Source of the DNA: Nitrospina sp.
Lineage (GTDB): Bacteria > Nitrospinota > Nitrospinia > Nitrospinales > VA-1
Length of the DNA: 7,131 nucleotides
Direction: 5' to 3'
Assembly: GCA_002697825.1 (NCBI GenBank)
Contig: NZYH01000046.1
Location: forward strand, 5,739 to 12,869
In this document: piece by piece, positions 1 through 7,131 of the stretch
How positions within the stretch are numbered: the first letter of the stretch is position 1
How the letters are laid out: every line of letters starts with the position of its first letter
Made by a program: the position numbers and the translations under genes
Notes under the pieces: generated by a model
Database searches by the model: none
What the model was told of the DNA's origin: nothing
What the model saw: only the letters and a program-made list of their open reading frames with translations

Positions 1-497
1 CTTAGTATTGCATATTTGGGACCAAGCAAAATTTTACATTTTTTTGGAACTAAATTGGTATAAGCACTTTTCATATTGATATGTAATCCCTGATCAATAA
101 TGAGATCACAATCATGTTTCCTATTATTGAGATCATCTACCACTATTATCTTATTCACAAGTTGTCTCAATGATTTTTCCCATCTAAATCCTAGACTATA
201 ATTATCCACTAATAATAAATCAATTTTCTTATTAATTTTTTTGAGTATTTTTTTTGTCTGTTCTAAATCGTACATCTCGTTAATTTTTTTCAAACCAATT
301 TTTTTATTTTTAATATAAATAACCTTATGACCATTTTTTAAAAATAATTGACTTAGATTATTTCTCTCTCTATTTGAAATAACATATACATTATAATCAT
401 ATTTTTTCATTTCATTCGCAATGGTTAAACATCTCATTGCATGGCCAAATCCAATTACATTTCCTGAATCAACTCTAATTACAATTTGTTTTTTCAT
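1..497 (-). CDS. pseG: PseG-like UDP-sugar hydrolase, N-terminal part (runs off the left edge)
   Basis: This reading frame starts at an ATG at 497 and stays open to base 1, giving 165 codons with the 3' part missing. PseG removes UDP from UDP-2,4-diacetamido-2,4,6-trideoxy-beta-L-altropyranose in cytoplasmic pseudaminic acid synthesis. The fragment shows the family's landmarks in order: RVDSGNVIGFGHAMRCL at 8-24, with His19 matching the catalytic histidine in the GxGH...RC motif; LLLVDNYSLGFRWE near 95-110; IVVDDLNNRKHDCDLIIDQG near 120-140; and LLGPKYAIL at the end. These match the GT-B-fold N-terminal half, which carries the active-site base. The gene diverges from the condensing-enzyme gene across a 99-base gap and has a TATA-like box about 28 bases before its ATG. 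A related hydrolase acting on another UDP-sugar is possible, so the family is secure but the substrate is inferred. Confidence 0.88.
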   Translation of the reverse strand, partial: MKKQIVIRVDSGNVIGFGHAMRCLTIANEMKKYDYNVYVISNRERNNLSQLFLKNGHKVIYIKNKKIGLKKINEMYDLEQTKKILKKINKKIDLLLVDNYSLGFRWEKSLRQLVNKIIVVDDLNNRKHDCDLIIDQGLHINMKSAYTNLVPKKCKILLGPKYAIL

Positions 498-596: not shown

Positions 597-1757
597 ATGG
601 GTGATGATGTTTCAATTTACGGTCTAGAAGTTGACTATCCTGAGAATGAATACTCAACAAATTCATTATTGGAACTAATGGGTGATAAACTCTCTAATCA
701 AGTTCAAGATAATATTAGACAATTAGGTGTTGAAAAAAGATGTTTCATTAGACCAATTGAGTACTATATCGGTAATGATTCTAATTTGGAAAACATCAAT
801 TTTAATGCAGAACCAATTTCGGATTTATCTGCCAAGGTAGCTAAAACCTGTATTTCAAAATTGGGTCTTAACCCAAATGAAATAACATGTCTTGTCACCG
901 CATCTGAAAATAATGATTATCAGAGTCCTGGATTGGCTCCAATTTTAGTTACTAAAATTGGACTTTCTAATTATGTCCCTCATTACAATTTACAAGGTAC
1001 AGCATGCTCAACTTTACCAAAGCTCTTAGAATTAGGAAAAAGTTTAGTAAAAAATGATGATGATGTAATTTTATTTGTTATCTCTGGGTGCAATTCTGGT
1101 TGGTATCTTCCTCATTTACGTGAAAAAGTTCCTATAGTAAACCCAAAAGAAACGTCAGAAGGTTTTGATAAAAATCAACTAGTTGACAAATGGGTTTCAA
1201 CAATGTTTTCATTTCTATTTGGTGATGGTGTTTGTGCATTTGTCATGAAAAAATCAAACGATACAAAAAATTCTATTAAAATAGGGAAAATTACTCATGC
1301 AGTTAATTTTGATAGTACTGATTACAAAAAAGCTAGTGTAAGACTAATCGGCAATGATCAAAATAGACTTTATTCATATCATTTAACTGCTGAAAATGAT
1401 ATTTTACCTCGTTCATTAAATTATTGTAAAAAAGTTCTAATGAAATCATTAAACAAAGATGAATCACAATTTGATCCTGATTCTTCTAAATCATTTTTCT
1501 CAAACCAAAAGAAAGTCATGATTCACACTGGAAGTTTAAAAATACTTGATGGTTTTAGAAATTTATTTGAATTAGAAATGGATCAAATTCAAGAATCATA
1601 TGATACTCTAAGTCAATATGGAAATCTTACCGGTGTTAGTATTCCTACTGTAATTAACAAGGCTTTCGTCCAAAATCAAAATATTTCTGGAAATGGATTA
1701 TTGATAGGAATAACTATGGGCTTTGGTCTTGACGTTGTTGAAGTTGAAAAATTATAA
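597..1757 (+). CDS. 3-oxoacyl-ACP synthase III / type III polyketide synthase-like condensing enzyme
   Basis: This thiolase-fold enzyme should load an acyl group on a cysteine and condense it with a malonyl-type or acetyl-type thioester. The full KAS III/chalcone-synthase triad is visible: Cys137 in QGTACSTLPKL, His310 in MIHTGSLKIL, and Asn343 in QYGNLTGVSIP. Other family marks are the FLFGDGVCAFVM strand near 206-217 and the closing GITMGFGLDVVEVEKL. At 386 residues it is nearer the length of chalcone-synthase-like enzymes than of FabH (about 320). The ATG at 597 is chosen because an in-frame stop lies at 573-575 and the protein then opens with the usual IYGLEVDYPENEYSTNSLLE. No acyl carrier protein gene is visible nearby, so the acceptor may be a CoA ester. 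It ends two bases from the convergent SDR gene. The product is unknown; supply of an acyl group for sugar decoration is an inference from context. Confidence 0.85.
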   Translation: MGDDVSIYGLEVDYPENEYSTNSLLELMGDKLSNQVQDNIRQLGVEKRCFIRPIEYYIGNDSNLENINFNAEPISDLSAKVAKTCISKLGLNPNEITCLVTASENNDYQSPGLAPILVTKIGLSNYVPHYNLQGTACSTLPKLLELGKSLVKNDDDVILFVISGCNSGWYLPHLREKVPIVNPKETSEGFDKNQLVDKWVSTMFSFLFGDGVCAFVMKKSNDTKNSIKIGKITHAVNFDSTDYKKASVRLIGNDQNRLYSYHLTAENDILPRSLNYCKKVLMKSLNKDESQFDPDSSKSFFSNQKKVMIHTGSLKILDGFRNLFELEMDQIQESYDTLSQYGNLTGVSIPTVINKAFVQNQNISGNGLLIGITMGFGLDVVEVEKL

Positions 1758-1759
1758 TA

Positions 1760-2506
1760 TTATTTTAAACTAGCGCCACCATCAACAATCAAAACTGAAC
1801 CAGTAGTCCATGATGAATCATCTGAGGCAAAATACAATATTGCATTAGCAATATCTTTTCCGTTTCCAATTCTTCCCAATGGATGTTGTAATACCGCTTT
1901 TTTTCGTTTTTCAGAAGAATTTAACCATAATTTTTTTGTCATATCTGTATCTACAACTGCTGCACAAACACAATTAACTCTAATTTTGTCTTTAGCATAT
2001 TCTACTGCCCATGCTTTCGTTAACATTACTAAAGCAGATTTTGATGCTGTATATGCATCTGCATAAAAATTTTCAAATGATCTAATTCCTGCATCCGATG
2101 ACATGTTAATAATACTCCCACCACTTTTCATCATATGTGGAATAACTGCCTTAGTAAATCTGAATGAACCATTTAGATTTACATCTATTACTTCATTCCA
2201 TTCTTTTTCTGATATGTTATGTAATTTTTTAAATTTTGGAAATACTCCTGCATTGTTAATTAGAACATCTATTTTCCCAAATTTTTTAATAATCTTTTTA
2301 ATAACTTTCTCTACATCTGAATTATTCCGAATATCACCTTTGACATAAAAAACATCTCCTAATTCTTTTGAGGTTTTTTTTAACATTGACTCGTTTTTTG
2401 AAGTAATGATGATTTTAGCACCTTCTTTCACAAATAATTCTGCAATACTTTTCCCAATACCTCTACTTCCTCCTGTAATTAGAACGATTTTTCCTTTTAG
2501 TCGCAT
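1760..2506 (-). CDS. SDR-family NAD(P)-dependent oxidoreductase (FabG-like)
   Basis: This is a classical short-chain dehydrogenase/reductase of normal length (248 residues), a cytoplasmic Rossmann-fold enzyme that interconverts a carbonyl and an alcohol. Visible motifs are the nucleotide loop TGGSRGIG at 11-18, NNAG at 84-87, Asn110 in DVNLNG, the catalytic Ser137 in INMSSDAG, and Tyr152/Lys156 in AYTASKSA. The C-terminal VDGG at 241-244 is typical of FabG-like members. All tetrad residues are present, so it should be active. Its ATG lies nine bases after the stop of the upstream GNAT gene, so the two are probably one transcription unit. Substrate cannot be read from sequence. Two context-based options are a 3-oxoacyl thioester made by the neighbouring condensing enzyme, or a keto-sugar. 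Confidence 0.9.
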   Translation of the reverse strand: MRLKGKIVLITGGSRGIGKSIAELFVKEGAKIIITSKNESMLKKTSKELGDVFYVKGDIRNNSDVEKVIKKIIKKFGKIDVLINNAGVFPKFKKLHNISEKEWNEVIDVNLNGSFRFTKAVIPHMMKSGGSIINMSSDAGIRSFENFYADAYTASKSALVMLTKAWAVEYAKDKIRVNCVCAAVVDTDMTKKLWLNSSEKRKKAVLQHPLGRIGNGKDIANAILYFASDDSSWTTGSVLIVDGGASLK

Positions 2507-2515
2507 ATCGATAAT

Positions 2516-3187
2516 TTATTGTAATATCTTATAATCTATCCTACCAAATTTCTCCAACAATTCTTCTTTAGTAATTTCTATTGCTGTCATCTCTCTTTCT
2601 CCATCATTTTTTTCTGCTTTAGTCCATCTCCATCCTTCATCCATAGGAATTTTATTCATTGTAAATTTAGAAATTTTTTTCCAACCACATTTCAAATGAA
2701 CTTTCATCATTGATTCATTATCAGAAAATAACTCTCCAAATATTTTTCTGCTTTCCAATGATTCAAAAATCCATCTCAAGTATACTTTTTCTATAACTGT
2801 CATCAATCCTGGAAAATTCAAGTCTGGAGATTTTATCATACTTGTAAATACCACCAAATCATTATCTTTTGGATGAATTCCGTGACCAATGTTTCCAACT
2901 TTTTTATCATCTAGGTATATCATAAACTGAATTCTTGTAGGATCTCCCAAAATATCACTTTCAATCCATTTCTTAGTTTTTTCTGTTGTAATTTCAAAAA
3001 TTGAAAAATAATTGTCTCTGTATACTTTTCTCCATTCACTCATCAACTTTACTGTTTCATCTGATGTATCGACTAACTTTAGTATGATTTTCTTTTTTTC
3101 ATAAAATATCTCAATAAAATCTGTCTGTCCTAGATTTTTTATTCTCATCAATTCATTTCTATAATTTTCATGAAACTTATCACTCAT
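2516..3187 (-). CDS. GNAT-family N-acyltransferase, PseH-like
   Basis: This 223-residue protein resembles PseH-type GNAT enzymes, which acylate the 4-amino group of a UDP-amino-sugar from an acyl-CoA. The pattern fits in order: a WRKVYRDNYFS stretch near 52-62, the EITTEKTKKWIES helix near 65-77, the FMIYLDDKKVGNIG strands at 88-101, and the C-terminal FSDNESMMKVHLKCGWKK at 154-171, which is the usual N...Y.K.GF acyl-CoA-side motif. The acyl-CoA pyrophosphate loop, normally Q/RxxGxG/A, is poorly conserved: the corresponding SPDLNFPGLMT (120-130) keeps only one glycine. A tail of about 30 charged residues follows the GNAT core. The gene starts a probable two-gene unit with the SDR and has a TATA-like box about 28 bases upstream. 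PseH function is inferred from resemblance and from pseG nearby; another amino-sugar N-acyltransferase is the main alternative. Confidence 0.75.
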   Translation of the reverse strand: MSDKFHENYRNELMRIKNLGQTDFIEIFYEKKKIILKLVDTSDETVKLMSEWRKVYRDNYFSIFEITTEKTKKWIESDILGDPTRIQFMIYLDDKKVGNIGHGIHPKDNDLVVFTSMIKSPDLNFPGLMTVIEKVYLRWIFESLESRKIFGELFSDNESMMKVHLKCGWKKISKFTMNKIPMDEGWRWTKAEKNDGEREMTAIEITKEELLEKFGRIDYKILQ

Positions 3188-4010: not shown

Positions 4011-5381
4011 TTAAATTTTTTTTAAAAGATTTTCCTTTTCTAATATTTCTGCAGATTTTTTTATCACTTTCAATTCGATATTTGAGAGTTCTGAAATATC
4101 TTCTAGTGAATGATTACCATCAGAAAAATTAAGAATCCACAAATATGATAGTTGATTAAAAATTTCTTTATCCGAATCAGCAGATGTTCCCCCGATTTTT
4201 CTATATAGCCCCCTTTTGCCCAACTGTGGTTCACATTTTGGAAATTGGTTCAAATACACGATACCTTTCTCTTTCTTTTTTATGATATTGTCTTTATTTT
4301 GATTTTTTTGATTTTTTTTATTTTTATTTAATTGCATAATTATTTCAAAATACATTTCAAATGTTTCAGCTAAAGCTTTTTCTGAAATTATTGAAAAATT
4401 ATCTGCTGAACTATGATATTCTGGAAATTCAAGATATTTGTTATCAGATCTATATAAAGAACCAACTGGTAAATTTATCCCTGGAGAACAAAACTGTCTC
4501 TCATCACTACCATACGGAAAAAAATCTACAATTTGATTATCAAATTTTGAATTTTTTAATACATTCATTACTGTTTCATCAATTACGTTATTACCCATTC
4601 TAGTTTTTTTATAGGTAAATTTAGCGGATGTTCCAAGACAAGTTGCGACTAAACCATGTTTAATTCGCATTAAATTTTTTTCATTCTTGGATATCCACGT
4701 TATTGCGCCAATGGTCTCTGGAATAAATAGAAATCTGATTGAATAATAATTCTTAATTTCCTGAATTCTTTTTGCCAAATACGTTACGAGTACTACTCCT
4801 GATAAATTATCATTACATAATGATGGGTGACATACATAACATGTTATCAAAATCTCTTCATCAGTTTCTCCAGGAACTAAAAATTCACCATAAGTTAAAG
4901 AACCTGTTTCAAGTTTAGAGTCAATTAATACTTCGTATTTATCATCCTTTAATTCAGAAAGTTGTTTATGGCTCATACAGAAGCCCCAATTCTCATCATA
5001 ATATGATGTGTGATATGGAATTAAATCTGGTTTCTTTGGTAATGTACGCACATGTTCTTTTAATTCTTTTAATGAAATGTTCTTGTGAATTGGTGTACTA
5101 TAGCTAACAACATGTAAATTTAATTTTTGAAAATCTATAATTTTTTCTCCACTAGATGTTTTGATATATGCATCGTTAATATTCCATTCTTTAGGAATTT
5201 TCCAATCAAAAATTTTTTCACCAGTTTTTACTTCATGAATTTCTATTGGTATTTCTTTTGAAATTATTTCAAGTGTTTTTCTAACTCCATTTCCTGTAAT
5301 ACTTCTACAAATTGGGAATAACACATTCATCAAATCATACATTTTTTTACCTATGTTAGATGAATTATCTTCGAGTTCCAT
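4011..5381 (-). CDS. DUF4910/DUF2172 aminopeptidase-like zinc hydrolase with C-terminal winged helix
   Basis: This 456-residue protein matches the aminopeptidase-like family often found in polysaccharide clusters. Its strongest signatures are LFPICRSITGNGVRKTL (21-37), FDWKIPKEWNINDAYI (58-73), YGEFLVPG (164-171), CHPSLCNDNLSG (184-195), FIPETIGAITW (219-229), FPYGSDERQFCSPG (288-301) and YHSSADN (322-328). By analogy with M28-type peptidases, His185, Asp191, Glu222 and His323 are likely metal ligands. Residues 352-372 form a Lys/Asn/Gln linker, after which about 85 residues end in a winged-helix-like segment (DGNHSLEDISEL...EKENLLKKI). No signal peptide is seen, so it is cytoplasmic. Family function is not established; amide cleavage or deacylation of a sugar intermediate is a guess from context. 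It lies 59 bases downstream of the CMAH-like gene on the same strand and may be co-transcribed. Confidence 0.87.
   Translation of the reverse strand: MELEDNSSNIGKKMYDLMNVLFPICRSITGNGVRKTLEIISKEIPIEIHEVKTGEKIFDWKIPKEWNINDAYIKTSSGEKIIDFQKLNLHVVSYSTPIHKNISLKELKEHVRTLPKKPDLIPYHTSYYDENWGFCMSHKQLSELKDDKYEVLIDSKLETGSLTYGEFLVPGETDEEILITCYVCHPSLCNDNLSGVVLVTYLAKRIQEIKNYYSIRFLFIPETIGAITWISKNEKNLMRIKHGLVATCLGTSAKFTYKKTRMGNNVIDETVMNVLKNSKFDNQIVDFFPYGSDERQFCSPGINLPVGSLYRSDNKYLEFPEYHSSADNFSIISEKALAETFEMYFEIIMQLNKNKKNQKNQNKDNIIKKKEKGIVYLNQFPKCEPQLGKRGLYRKIGGTSADSDKEIFNQLSYLWILNFSDGNHSLEDISELSNIELKVIKKSAEILEKENLLKKI
4016..4023 (+). terminator. T8 run after the UDP-sugar-dehydrogenase-like gene
   Basis: A run of eight T's begins 12 bases after the stop at 4002-4004, inside the 3' end of the convergent gene. 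It fits an archaeal T-tract terminator for the plus-strand message. Together with the minus-strand tract at 3988-4008 it would separate the two convergent genes. There is no hairpin support. Confidence 0.35.
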
Positions 5382-5440: not shown

Positions 5441-7131
5441 TTAGTTGACAGTCTCACCTAATTCTAAAATTAGTTTATCTCTTTGTTTTTCATCTAATCC
5501 ATGAATCTCACAACCTTCTTCAATTGTTTCGCCAATTGATGCTTCGCACCCAACACAAAAAAGACCATTCTTCTCAAAAATCTCGATCACCTCGCTTCCT
5601 CCTTTTTCAATAATGTCTGCTATCGATGAATTTTTTTTAATTTCAAATACTTTTGGATTTGTTTTTCCATCATAAATTTTTCTTGCTCTCCATGGAACAT
5701 GTAATAATTGCCAAAATGCAACATTGTAAATATCTGGGTCTCGTGAAAACTCACACCAAAAACCACTTACTAATTCGTCCCAATAGAGATCATTTCTAAT
5801 TATTTCTTGAACCAGATGTCCTGGACATTTCATCAAAAGATTAGCTTTACTCTCTTTTTCTATTTTTTCATAAGTAATATTCCCATCATCAAATTTTATG
5901 AATCCATGAACTTTTTCATCTAGATGTTCCAATGTTAATGATACTGTGTAATTCCCAACTCTTCTTGCAAGGTGTGAATCTGAAAACGACTCAAAATATT
6001 GTTTCAATTCTTTATGTGTTAAATTAAATTCAAAAGGAATTGTAGTTTCAAATTCTTGTTTTTCTTGAATTTCTTCCAAATAACCCATTAAATGTTCCTT
6101 ATTGAACAAATCTTCTCTATCATCTCTTCTAGAAAATTTCCCTGTTCGTCCATTCCAAGATTCGCCAGGTAAAATATCTAATATATCAATTGGGTAATCT
6201 TTTAAAAATTTAACAACATCACTAGGTCTATTCTTTGACTGCGAATCAAGCACAAATTCTAGATGATCTTTATGATATAATTCATTAAAATTTGCAAAAG
6301 GGATAAAGTACTTTGCATTAGTAGCGTCTAAAACTTGTTTTATCATTCGTAACATTCCATCATTCCTATTTTTATTTAATTGAATTTTTGCTTTTTCATT
6401 AATGTGTGTCCATGTTGCAGGATATGCACTTGCTGGACCAAATTGCATACATACCATATCTACATCTCCTATTGCATGCTTAATTGACCAATTGAATCCT
6501 GCATCATTTACATTTAGAATAGAAAAGTTTCCTAACTGTAAATATAATATACTGTCATTAAAAACATGTCCTCGTGAAAAACTAATTGCATTAATTTCTG
6601 GTGAAAAATTATAAATTTTTTCTTGTTTCATTGAAGTAATATTTTTGAATCCAAATTCTCTTAGTTTTTTTTCTAAACGATTATTATCATAATCTGGAAC
6701 ATATATTGGAATATTTTTATCAAATTCCATTAATGTGGGTAAATGAAAATGATCAGAATGTTCATGAGATATCCAAATAGCATCAATTCTAGGTAATTCA
6801 TTAACTTGAATTCCAGATGGAGGATAGTTTACCCATGAATCAAAAACACATAACCCTTTCATCCAAGGATCAGTTAGAATATTGAAATTTTTCCATTCGA
6901 TTAGTAATGATGCACTACCAACTAGAGTAATTTTTGGTAACACTTTTTCGCCATTTGTTTTTTTAATAAGAAGATTTTCGTTTTTATCAAGGTTCACATA
7001 GACTTGATCATTCTCAACAATCAAATTTTTCTTTTCTAATGACTCATTTGAAACATTCAAGCAATTACCATTTTTTGAATCAAAAATCCAATCATGACTT
7101 GGGCATCTCCATACTTTATCTCTAATGTCTG
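5441..7131 (-). CDS. CMP-N-acetylneuraminate hydroxylase (CMAH)-like Rieske/metallo-beta-lactamase-fold protein with C-terminal DUF1858 domain (N-terminus off the right edge)
   Basis: The frame is open to the window edge, giving 562 complete codons and no start. Animal CMAH hydroxylates the N-acetyl group of CMP-Neu5Ac, using a Rieske [2Fe-2S] domain fused to a metallo-beta-lactamase-like fold. In fragment numbering, VWRCPSHDWIFD (6-17) carries the second Rieske Cys-x-x-His pair (Cys9, His12); the first pair lies outside. ILTDPWMKGL (84-93) and ISHEHSDHFHLPTL (120-133) give the HxHxDH metal motif (His122, His124, Asp126, His127). The segment 445-466, with LYWDELVSGFW and RDPDIYNVAFW, closely resembles the CMAH C-terminal region (LLWDELYIGF...RDPDIYHHLFW). 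Residues about 501-562 are an added DUF1858-like domain with CVGC (525-528) and Cys540. A TTG at 7060 could be mistaken for a start but would cut through the Rieske domain. The substrate is unknown; a CMP-nonulosonate is inferred from pseG in the locus. Confidence 0.85.
   Translation of the reverse strand, partial: DIRDKVWRCPSHDWIFDSKNGNCLNVSNESLEKKNLIVENDQVYVNLDKNENLLIKKTNGEKVLPKITLVGSASLLIEWKNFNILTDPWMKGLCVFDSWVNYPPSGIQVNELPRIDAIWISHEHSDHFHLPTLMEFDKNIPIYVPDYDNNRLEKKLREFGFKNITSMKQEKIYNFSPEINAISFSRGHVFNDSILYLQLGNFSILNVNDAGFNWSIKHAIGDVDMVCMQFGPASAYPATWTHINEKAKIQLNKNRNDGMLRMIKQVLDATNAKYFIPFANFNELYHKDHLEFVLDSQSKNRPSDVVKFLKDYPIDILDILPGESWNGRTGKFSRRDDREDLFNKEHLMGYLEEIQEKQEFETTIPFEFNLTHKELKQYFESFSDSHLARRVGNYTVSLTLEHLDEKVHGFIKFDDGNITYEKIEKESKANLLMKCPGHLVQEIIRNDLYWDELVSGFWCEFSRDPDIYNVAFWQLLHVPWRARKIYDGKTNPKVFEIKKNSSIADIIEKGGSEVIEIFEKNGLFCVGCEASIGETIEEGCEIHGLDEKQRDKLILELGETVN

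Follow-up and report, generated by a model that had tools for sequence, protein, structure and literature searches.

A DUF1858-fused Rieske protein of the wider CMAH family and its relatives in nonulosonate gene contexts

The 7,131-nucleotide stretch of contig NZYH01000046.1 (assembly GCA_002697825.1) analyzed here, referred to as the window, carries on its minus strand most of a gene for a protein that resembles vertebrate CMAH. The open frame encodes 562 residues, which are the last 562 of a 612-residue protein. A full-length database protein, P0001, is identical to the window frame except for one of these 562 residues and adds the first 50 residues; its numbering is used throughout. An initial annotation of the window letters had named a Rieske CxxH pair, an HxHxDH motif and a CMAH-type C-terminal block, all of which are present where it placed them (Table 1). 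The window contains the second Rieske pair only, and the first, C42-P-H44, was found in the part of P0001 that lies outside the window, so that the full protein does have the CxH pair on which the annotation depended. We consider it very likely that the protein is an oxygenase that is driven by its Rieske domain and belongs to the wider CMAH family.

The window protein matched Pfam Lactamase_B_3 at 38.8 bits (cut-off 24). C-terminal to the CMAH-type block is another domain, DUF1858 (Pfam DUF1858, 38.2 bits versus a cut-off of 32.2; TIGR03980, 52.3 versus 44.95), which the initial annotation had overlooked. An AlphaFold model of the protein has a mean predicted local distance difference test score of 87.5 and a predicted template modelling score of 0.81, with the linker and the DUF1858 part being less confident.

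To compare individual residues, we aligned 72 prokaryotic and viral rows (68 of the window type and four of a bacterial/viral type, with 32-84% identity to P0001) with four vertebrate CMAH rows. The residues that never change in all 76 rows are C42, H44, C59, H62, H172, H174, D176, H177, D242, D259, A329, Y428, W500, and D501. Residues C575, C578, and H593 are kept in 72/72 prokaryotic/viral rows and fall in gaps in the 4/4 vertebrate rows.

Table 1. Features of the window, with residues numbered as in P0001; rows are those of the 76-row alignment.
Feature	Position	Strand	Remarks
CMAH-like Rieske/metallo-beta-lactamase/DUF1858 protein, residues 51-612 of 612	5441..7129	-	5' end outside window
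Second Rieske pair, C59-P-S-H62 (CPSH)	7094..7105	-	
Metallo-beta-lactamase fold domain, residues 113-377	6149..6943	-	Pfam Lactamase_B_3
HxHxDH metal motif, HEHSDH, H172-H177	6749..6766	-	
D242, candidate extra metal ligand	6554..6556	-	Invariant in 72/72 prokaryotic/viral and 4/4 vertebrate rows
D259 in NVNDAG, expected (putative) metal ligand	6503..6505	-	Invariant in 76/76 rows
P327-F-A329	6293..6301	-	A329 invariant in 76/76 rows
CMAH-type C-terminal block LYWDELVSGFWCEFSRDPDIYNVAFW, LYWDELVSGFW...RDPDIYNVAFW, residues 498-523	5711..5788	-	
DUF1858 / TIGR03980 redox-disulfide domain, C-terminal fusion	5492..5641	-	Above both curated cut-offs
C575-V-G-C578 of the DUF1858 domain	5546..5557	-	In 72/72 prokaryotic/viral rows; gap in 4/4 vertebrate rows
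PseG-like UDP-sugar hydrolase, truncated by window end	3..497	-	TIGR03590, 155.1 bits versus cut-off 153.55
Ketoacyl-synthase-III-like protein	597-1757		Between PseG-like and CMAH-type genes; below curated cut-offs of its Pfam and NCBIfam matches
Short-chain dehydrogenase	1760..2506	-	
GNAT acetyltransferase	2516..3187	-	Acetyltransf_3; PseH match far under its cut-off
DUF4910/DUF2172/HTH_47 aminopeptidase-like protein	4011..5381	-	59 bases downstream of the CMAH-like gene

Compared with a named vertebrate CMAH, P0121 from Apodemus, the protein is 22% identical over 557 columns (E 7e-19). A comparison of profile against profile aligned 488 columns, from the Rieske domain through the C-terminal block, with an E value of 3.4e-36. 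Both matches lie far above what chance would give, and at the level of sequence the window protein is homologous to and colinear with vertebrate CMAH from the Rieske domain to the C-terminus. Both have the domain order Rieske, metallo-beta-lactamase, C-terminal block, and both have the cluster ligands, HxHxDH, D242, D259, A329, Y428, W500, and D501. In contrast, the protein overall shares only 19-22% of its residues with the four vertebrate CMAHs in the alignment, the vertebrate proteins form a separate clade, and the C-terminal DUF1858-type CxxC...CxxH motif was found in 0/120 listed relatives of mouse CMAH. The initial description of the C-terminal block as near-identical in pattern to vertebrate CMAH fits that block and does not extend to the protein as a whole.

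A total of 255 relatives of the window protein were found, and 120 of them were listed; counts per 120 refer to those. Both Rieske pairs are present in 118, HxHxDH in 119, and the C-terminal CxxC...CxxH in all 120, and the relatives that miss motifs, P0010 (395 residues) and P0073 (526 residues), are both short. Pfam searches of the 72 aligned members found the Rieske domain in 72 and DUF1858 in 69 (E ≤ 0.001); the precomputed Pfam annotation of the listed relatives names DUF1858 for part of the rows only. Peri et al. reportedly mentioned in 2018 CMAH homologues in "a few prokaryotes", and several window-type relatives carry the Joint Genome Institute (JGI) name "CMP-N-acetylneuraminate monooxygenase" (CMP, cytidine monophosphate). 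The present analysis established that DUF1858 is fused to the protein, and defined its metal-site pattern and its contexts with NeuA/NeuB/NeuC, GT42, and phage genes.

As read from the alignment, the metal site is altered relative to the usual fold, with HxHxDH, D242, and D259 kept and an Ala where the last His would normally be. This pattern bears on whether the protein could instead be a metal-dependent hydrolase of the metallo-beta-lactamase fold in which the Rieske domain acts as a sensor or regulator. A final His is usual in hydrolases of this fold, and it is this place that the invariant A329 occupies. The Asp of D242 and the Ala of A329 also occur in several distant metallo-beta-lactamase rows, so these residues mark a wider group and not CMAH alone. 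Position 238 is His in 4/4 vertebrate rows and Ser in 64/72 prokaryotic/viral rows, which again speaks against a hydrolase, although the window's own protein is among the five prokaryotic/viral rows with His. A fold search, which covered residues 108-411 only, left oxygenases and hydrolases tied, and the closest folds by Z include the hydrolases 3rpc and NAPE-PLD; the latter is also matched by the sequence profile (E 1.4e-9). The top sequence match among solved structures, however, is the non-heme diiron monooxygenase FrsH (E 6e-12), followed by the DUF1858 protein 2k53 (7.2e-12), the toluene-4-monooxygenase Rieske ferredoxin (3.6e-11, Rieske part), and, below NAPE-PLD, CmlA (2.6e-8). Given this match, the Ala, and the near-universal Rieske pairs among the listed relatives, we regard a hydrolase as very improbable.

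The diiron beta-hydroxylases FrsH and CmlA are oxygenases built on the metallo-beta-lactamase fold, as the window protein probably is. Their alignment is confined to that part (profile positions 108-291 for FrsH and 117-223 for CmlA), whereas the window protein carries a Rieske domain of its own and differs in its C-terminal parts. Its tail shares with the DUF1858/TIGR03980 family, the hybrid-cluster-protein-associated redox disulfide domain, the conserved CxxC, scores above both cut-offs, and the solved relative 2k53; unlike in that family, the domain here is the tail of an oxygenase-like protein. CMAH was absent among the 31 solved structures matched by the family profile, and the prokaryotic members may therefore serve as models.

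The relation to CMAH was further analyzed in an unrooted, outgroup-free tree of 38 rows, consisting of 14 window-type proteins (taken from the 120 listed), eight of the bacterial/viral type with DUF1858, six vertebrate CMAHs, and ten proteins of a second Rieske/metallo-beta-lactamase family from the Helicobacter phylum sample (L052-L059, L062, L063). The Helicobacter protein L006 was excluded because its gene is in pieces. One branch, with support 100/100, separates the window and bacterial/viral types from the vertebrates and the Helicobacter family. A forced clade of vertebrates with the window type was rejected (approximately unbiased test, p-AU 5.43e-9), as was one of vertebrates with the bacterial type (p-AU 5.33e-9). 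The close kinship to CMAH suggested initially is not upheld by this tree, in which vertebrate CMAH joins the Helicobacter family. Together with the DUF1858 tail, the tree rules out filing the protein as plain CMAH, and we describe it as belonging to a sister subfamily in the wider CMAH family rather than as a CMAH orthologue. When nine distant metallo-beta-lactamase rows without an N-terminal Rieske domain were added, six were placed on the side of the window type and three on that of the vertebrates. Because this second tree has flagged long branches and an unsure root, group relations were read from the outgroup-free tree, and the second tree cannot show window type and vertebrate CMAH to be nearest kin to the exclusion of the Rieske-less proteins.

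Within the Helicobacter family, a subgroup (L057, L058, L059, L062, L063) has lost HxHxDH, with SSNRSSC in its place, and the D259 position as well; these losses suggest that it is catalytically dead or has been repurposed. The metal site has therefore been lost at least in part of the wider family, which lends some plausibility to the idea that the window gene is an inactive or reassigned archaeal copy, gained by transfer and retained as a redox protein for its DUF1858 domain. We find this highly improbable, as HxHxDH, D242, D259, and the Rieske ligands are invariant in 72/72 rows that range down to 32% identity to P0001. By eye, the neighbors of the Helicobacter family genes are DnaK, cytochrome bc1, LpxB-like, or fumarase-like genes.

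A scan of genome contigs gave at least 24 loci with related genes; the absence of archaea among them carries no meaning. Loci with the bacterial/viral type number nine: L001 (Alkalicoccobacillus), L002 (Phycisphaerales), L003 (Bacteroidetes), L004-L006 (Helicobacter), L060 (same genus as L004), and the viral L025 and L026, which count as one lineage because they are close kin. TIGR03980 matched the proteins of all nine, in Helicobacter through their C-terminal frames, with E values of 1.5e-12 to 4.1e-7; L001 is above the cut-off and the other eight are below. The CMAH-type gene is adjoined by NeuB in five of the nine loci (L001, L003, L006, L025, L026), and NeuC is found in three (L001, L003, L006) and NeuA in four (L001, L006, L025, L026). 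The NeuA frame overlaps that of the CMAH-type gene in both L025 and L026. Pfam searches of 10 picked frames revealed a GT42 sialyltransferase in three loci (L004, L006, L060), a cytidylyltransferase in L003, and flagellin and a Maf-type glycosyltransferase in L001, and a profile built from the GT42 frames found no GT42 in the other six loci. Overall, NeuB or GT42 is present in 7/9 loci; neither was seen in L002 (6.9 kb) and L005 (21 kb).

For the six named genome loci, NeuB was found in three, versus 0.075 expected by chance (Poisson P 6.6e-5, assuming uniform placement and rounded genome sizes). A NeuB-family gene is present somewhere in 8/8 genomes or records searched, but also in 9/14 control genomes, and therefore only adjacency counts. 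The NeuC models scored far above cut-off in L001, L003, and L006. With the NeuB model (cut-off 399.65), L003 is above, L001 (392.5) and L006 (397.5) are just below, and L025 (235.0) is far below, and the NeuA of L001 and L025 has PseF as its best match, under the PseF cut-off. These NeuB and NeuA scores therefore do not fix the exact sugar type.

The account that we favor, if only modestly, is that the window protein is a monooxygenase from a separate prokaryotic subfamily of the wider CMAH family, with the N-acyl group of a CMP-activated nonulosonate as its site of hydroxylation. Its bacterial and viral relatives make a CMP-nonulosonate the candidate substrate with the best support. Modeled on vertebrate CMAH acting on CMP-N-acetylneuraminic acid, the Rieske [2Fe-2S] cluster would pass electrons to a non-heme iron in the metallo-beta-lactamase domain, which would activate O2 and hydroxylate the methyl of the N-acyl group on the CMP-nonulosonic acid. 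By the same analogy, an N-acetyl group would become N-glycolyl. Porcine CMAH has been described with a Rieske domain and depends on cytochrome b5 (PMC9219854). The DUF1858 domain may act as a built-in redox module that replaces, or works beside, the cytochrome b5 chain on which animal CMAH runs. For the window's organism, in which PseG is the gene seen, the sugar could be pseudaminic- or legionaminic-like, whereas bacteria that have NeuA, NeuB, and NeuC may use N-acetylneuraminic acid (Neu5Ac) itself.

Several observations weigh against this account and toward a Rieske monooxygenase of the same family with another archaeal substrate, such as the N-acyl group of an amino sugar linked to uridine diphosphate (UDP), or an acyl chain built with the help of the ketoacyl-synthase-III-like protein and the short-chain dehydrogenase. 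The clade is separate from vertebrate CMAH, and the second tree divides the Rieske-less proteins between the two sides. NeuA, NeuB, NeuC, and GT42 were found in 0/10 loci (each 13-16 kb) of the Helicobacter family, which is nearer to vertebrate CMAH in the tree; the wider family is therefore not bound to nonulosonate loci everywhere. In the 7.1-kb window, local models gave no match to NeuA, NeuB, or NeuC, and the genes present include PseG, GNAT, short-chain dehydrogenase, and ketoacyl-synthase-III-like, along with a weakly matching nucleotide-sugar-dehydrogenase-like protein. On the other hand, the window spans only 7 kb and ends inside PseG, the metal-site and C-terminal residues are common to CMAH, and the nearest group to the window type, joined by the fully supported split, is the one with NeuB or GT42 in most loci. 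We therefore consider another substrate unlikely, and retain the CMP-nonulosonate as the likelier one.

The PseG-like hydrolase noted initially scored above its cut-off and is the sole nonulosonate-type gene in the window, 5 kb from the CMAH-like gene. The proposed link to nonulosonate genes has support in the bacterial and viral relatives (NeuB in 5/9, GT42 in 3/9), and in the window it comes down to this one gene. The window has a G+C content of 28.1%. For the DUF4910 neighbor, just two rows among 120 listed relatives carry an organism name, one from an uncultured marine thaumarchaeote (58%) and the other from Nitrosarchaeum limnium (57%), and nearer relatives, which reach 95%, are without organism names. 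The locus had been called archaeal-looking, which these two thaumarchaeal rows make plausible without proving it; judged from such similarities, the gene is likely of archaeal origin.

Microbes apparently cannot make N-glycolylneuraminic acid (Neu5Gc), and the origin of human anti-Neu5Gc antibodies has been raised as an open question (PMC6524697); prokaryotes are also said not to make Neu5Gc naturally (PMC7845648). In light of these published statements, a test in a cultured bacterium would matter, and a microbial CMAH-type enzyme beside sialic-acid genes makes the question of antibody origin directly testable in one. Relatives beside such genes suggest that some microbes may themselves make the "animal" type of sugar. 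A broader proposal, to which we give slightly less than an even chance, is that microbes make N-glycolyl nonulosonic acids de novo, with the DUF1858-fused CMAH-type oxygenase acting on CMP-sugars in ammonia-oxidizing-type archaea, several bacterial phyla, and phages, and yielding Neu5Gc itself where it is paired with NeuA, NeuB, NeuC, and GT42. A glycoproteome of two ammonia-oxidizing archaea reported no apparent N-glycosylation in Nitrosopumilus piranensis (PMC12153357). The main text of that paper never uses the terms nonulosonic, pseudaminic, legionaminic, sialic, glycolyl, or NeuB, and neither supports nor excludes the proposal. Among the literature matches listed, which leave out most subscription journals, no title concerns an archaeal CMAH. 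Further leads are the fusion of a redox domain and the nonulosonate cassette carried by phages.

In the bacteria sampled, the CMAH-type gene is rare and patchy. At E ≤ 1e-20, matches were found in 14/298 genomes of the Helicobacter phylum sample, 2/395 of the L003 phylum sample, 2/397 of the L001 order sample, and 11/392 of the L002 phylum sample. The latter three each gave one full-length match, the starting genome, and the rest cover mainly the metallo-beta-lactamase part. Score and position assign two of the 14 Helicobacter-phylum genomes (G004 and G010) to the DUF1858 type; for the other 12, ten places from nine genomes were inspected, and all belong to the sister family. Searches of phage and plasmid records gave 0/2 and 0/41 records, respectively, with one place spanning 80% of the protein, the hits being partial. 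A 35.9% hit in Natrinema (L029) was set aside, since it spans residues 5-96 only and a matching long frame was not seen there.

Individual loci showed further features. In four Helicobacter genomes (L004 8717-10587, L005 9657-11503, L006 4024-5857, and L060 7385-9266), the Rieske and metallo-beta-lactamase parts lie in separate frames, with L006 being further broken; a gene split, phase variation, and decay cannot be told apart. The viral records, from IMG/VR (L025 7727-11743 and L026 726-4736), have a consecutive set of NeuB, a methyltransferase-like frame (judged by eye), NeuA, and the CMAH-type gene, near a phage DnaB-like helicase (phrog_19, tested in L026). The Bacteroidetes locus (L003 7837-16776) consists of NeuB, NeuC, the CMAH-type gene, a CBS-nucleotidyltransferase, a GFO/IDH oxidoreductase, a cytidylyltransferase, and a dehydrogenase, a set that we take to recall legionaminic-acid (Ptm) cassettes. 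In Alkalicoccobacillus murimartini (L001), the CMAH-type gene is unbroken (9986-11839) and shares a stretch of 10.3 kb (4447-14734) with flagellin, a Maf-type glycosyltransferase, NeuA, NeuC, and NeuB, and this gene content makes flagellin glycosylation with a hydroxylated nonulosonate possible.
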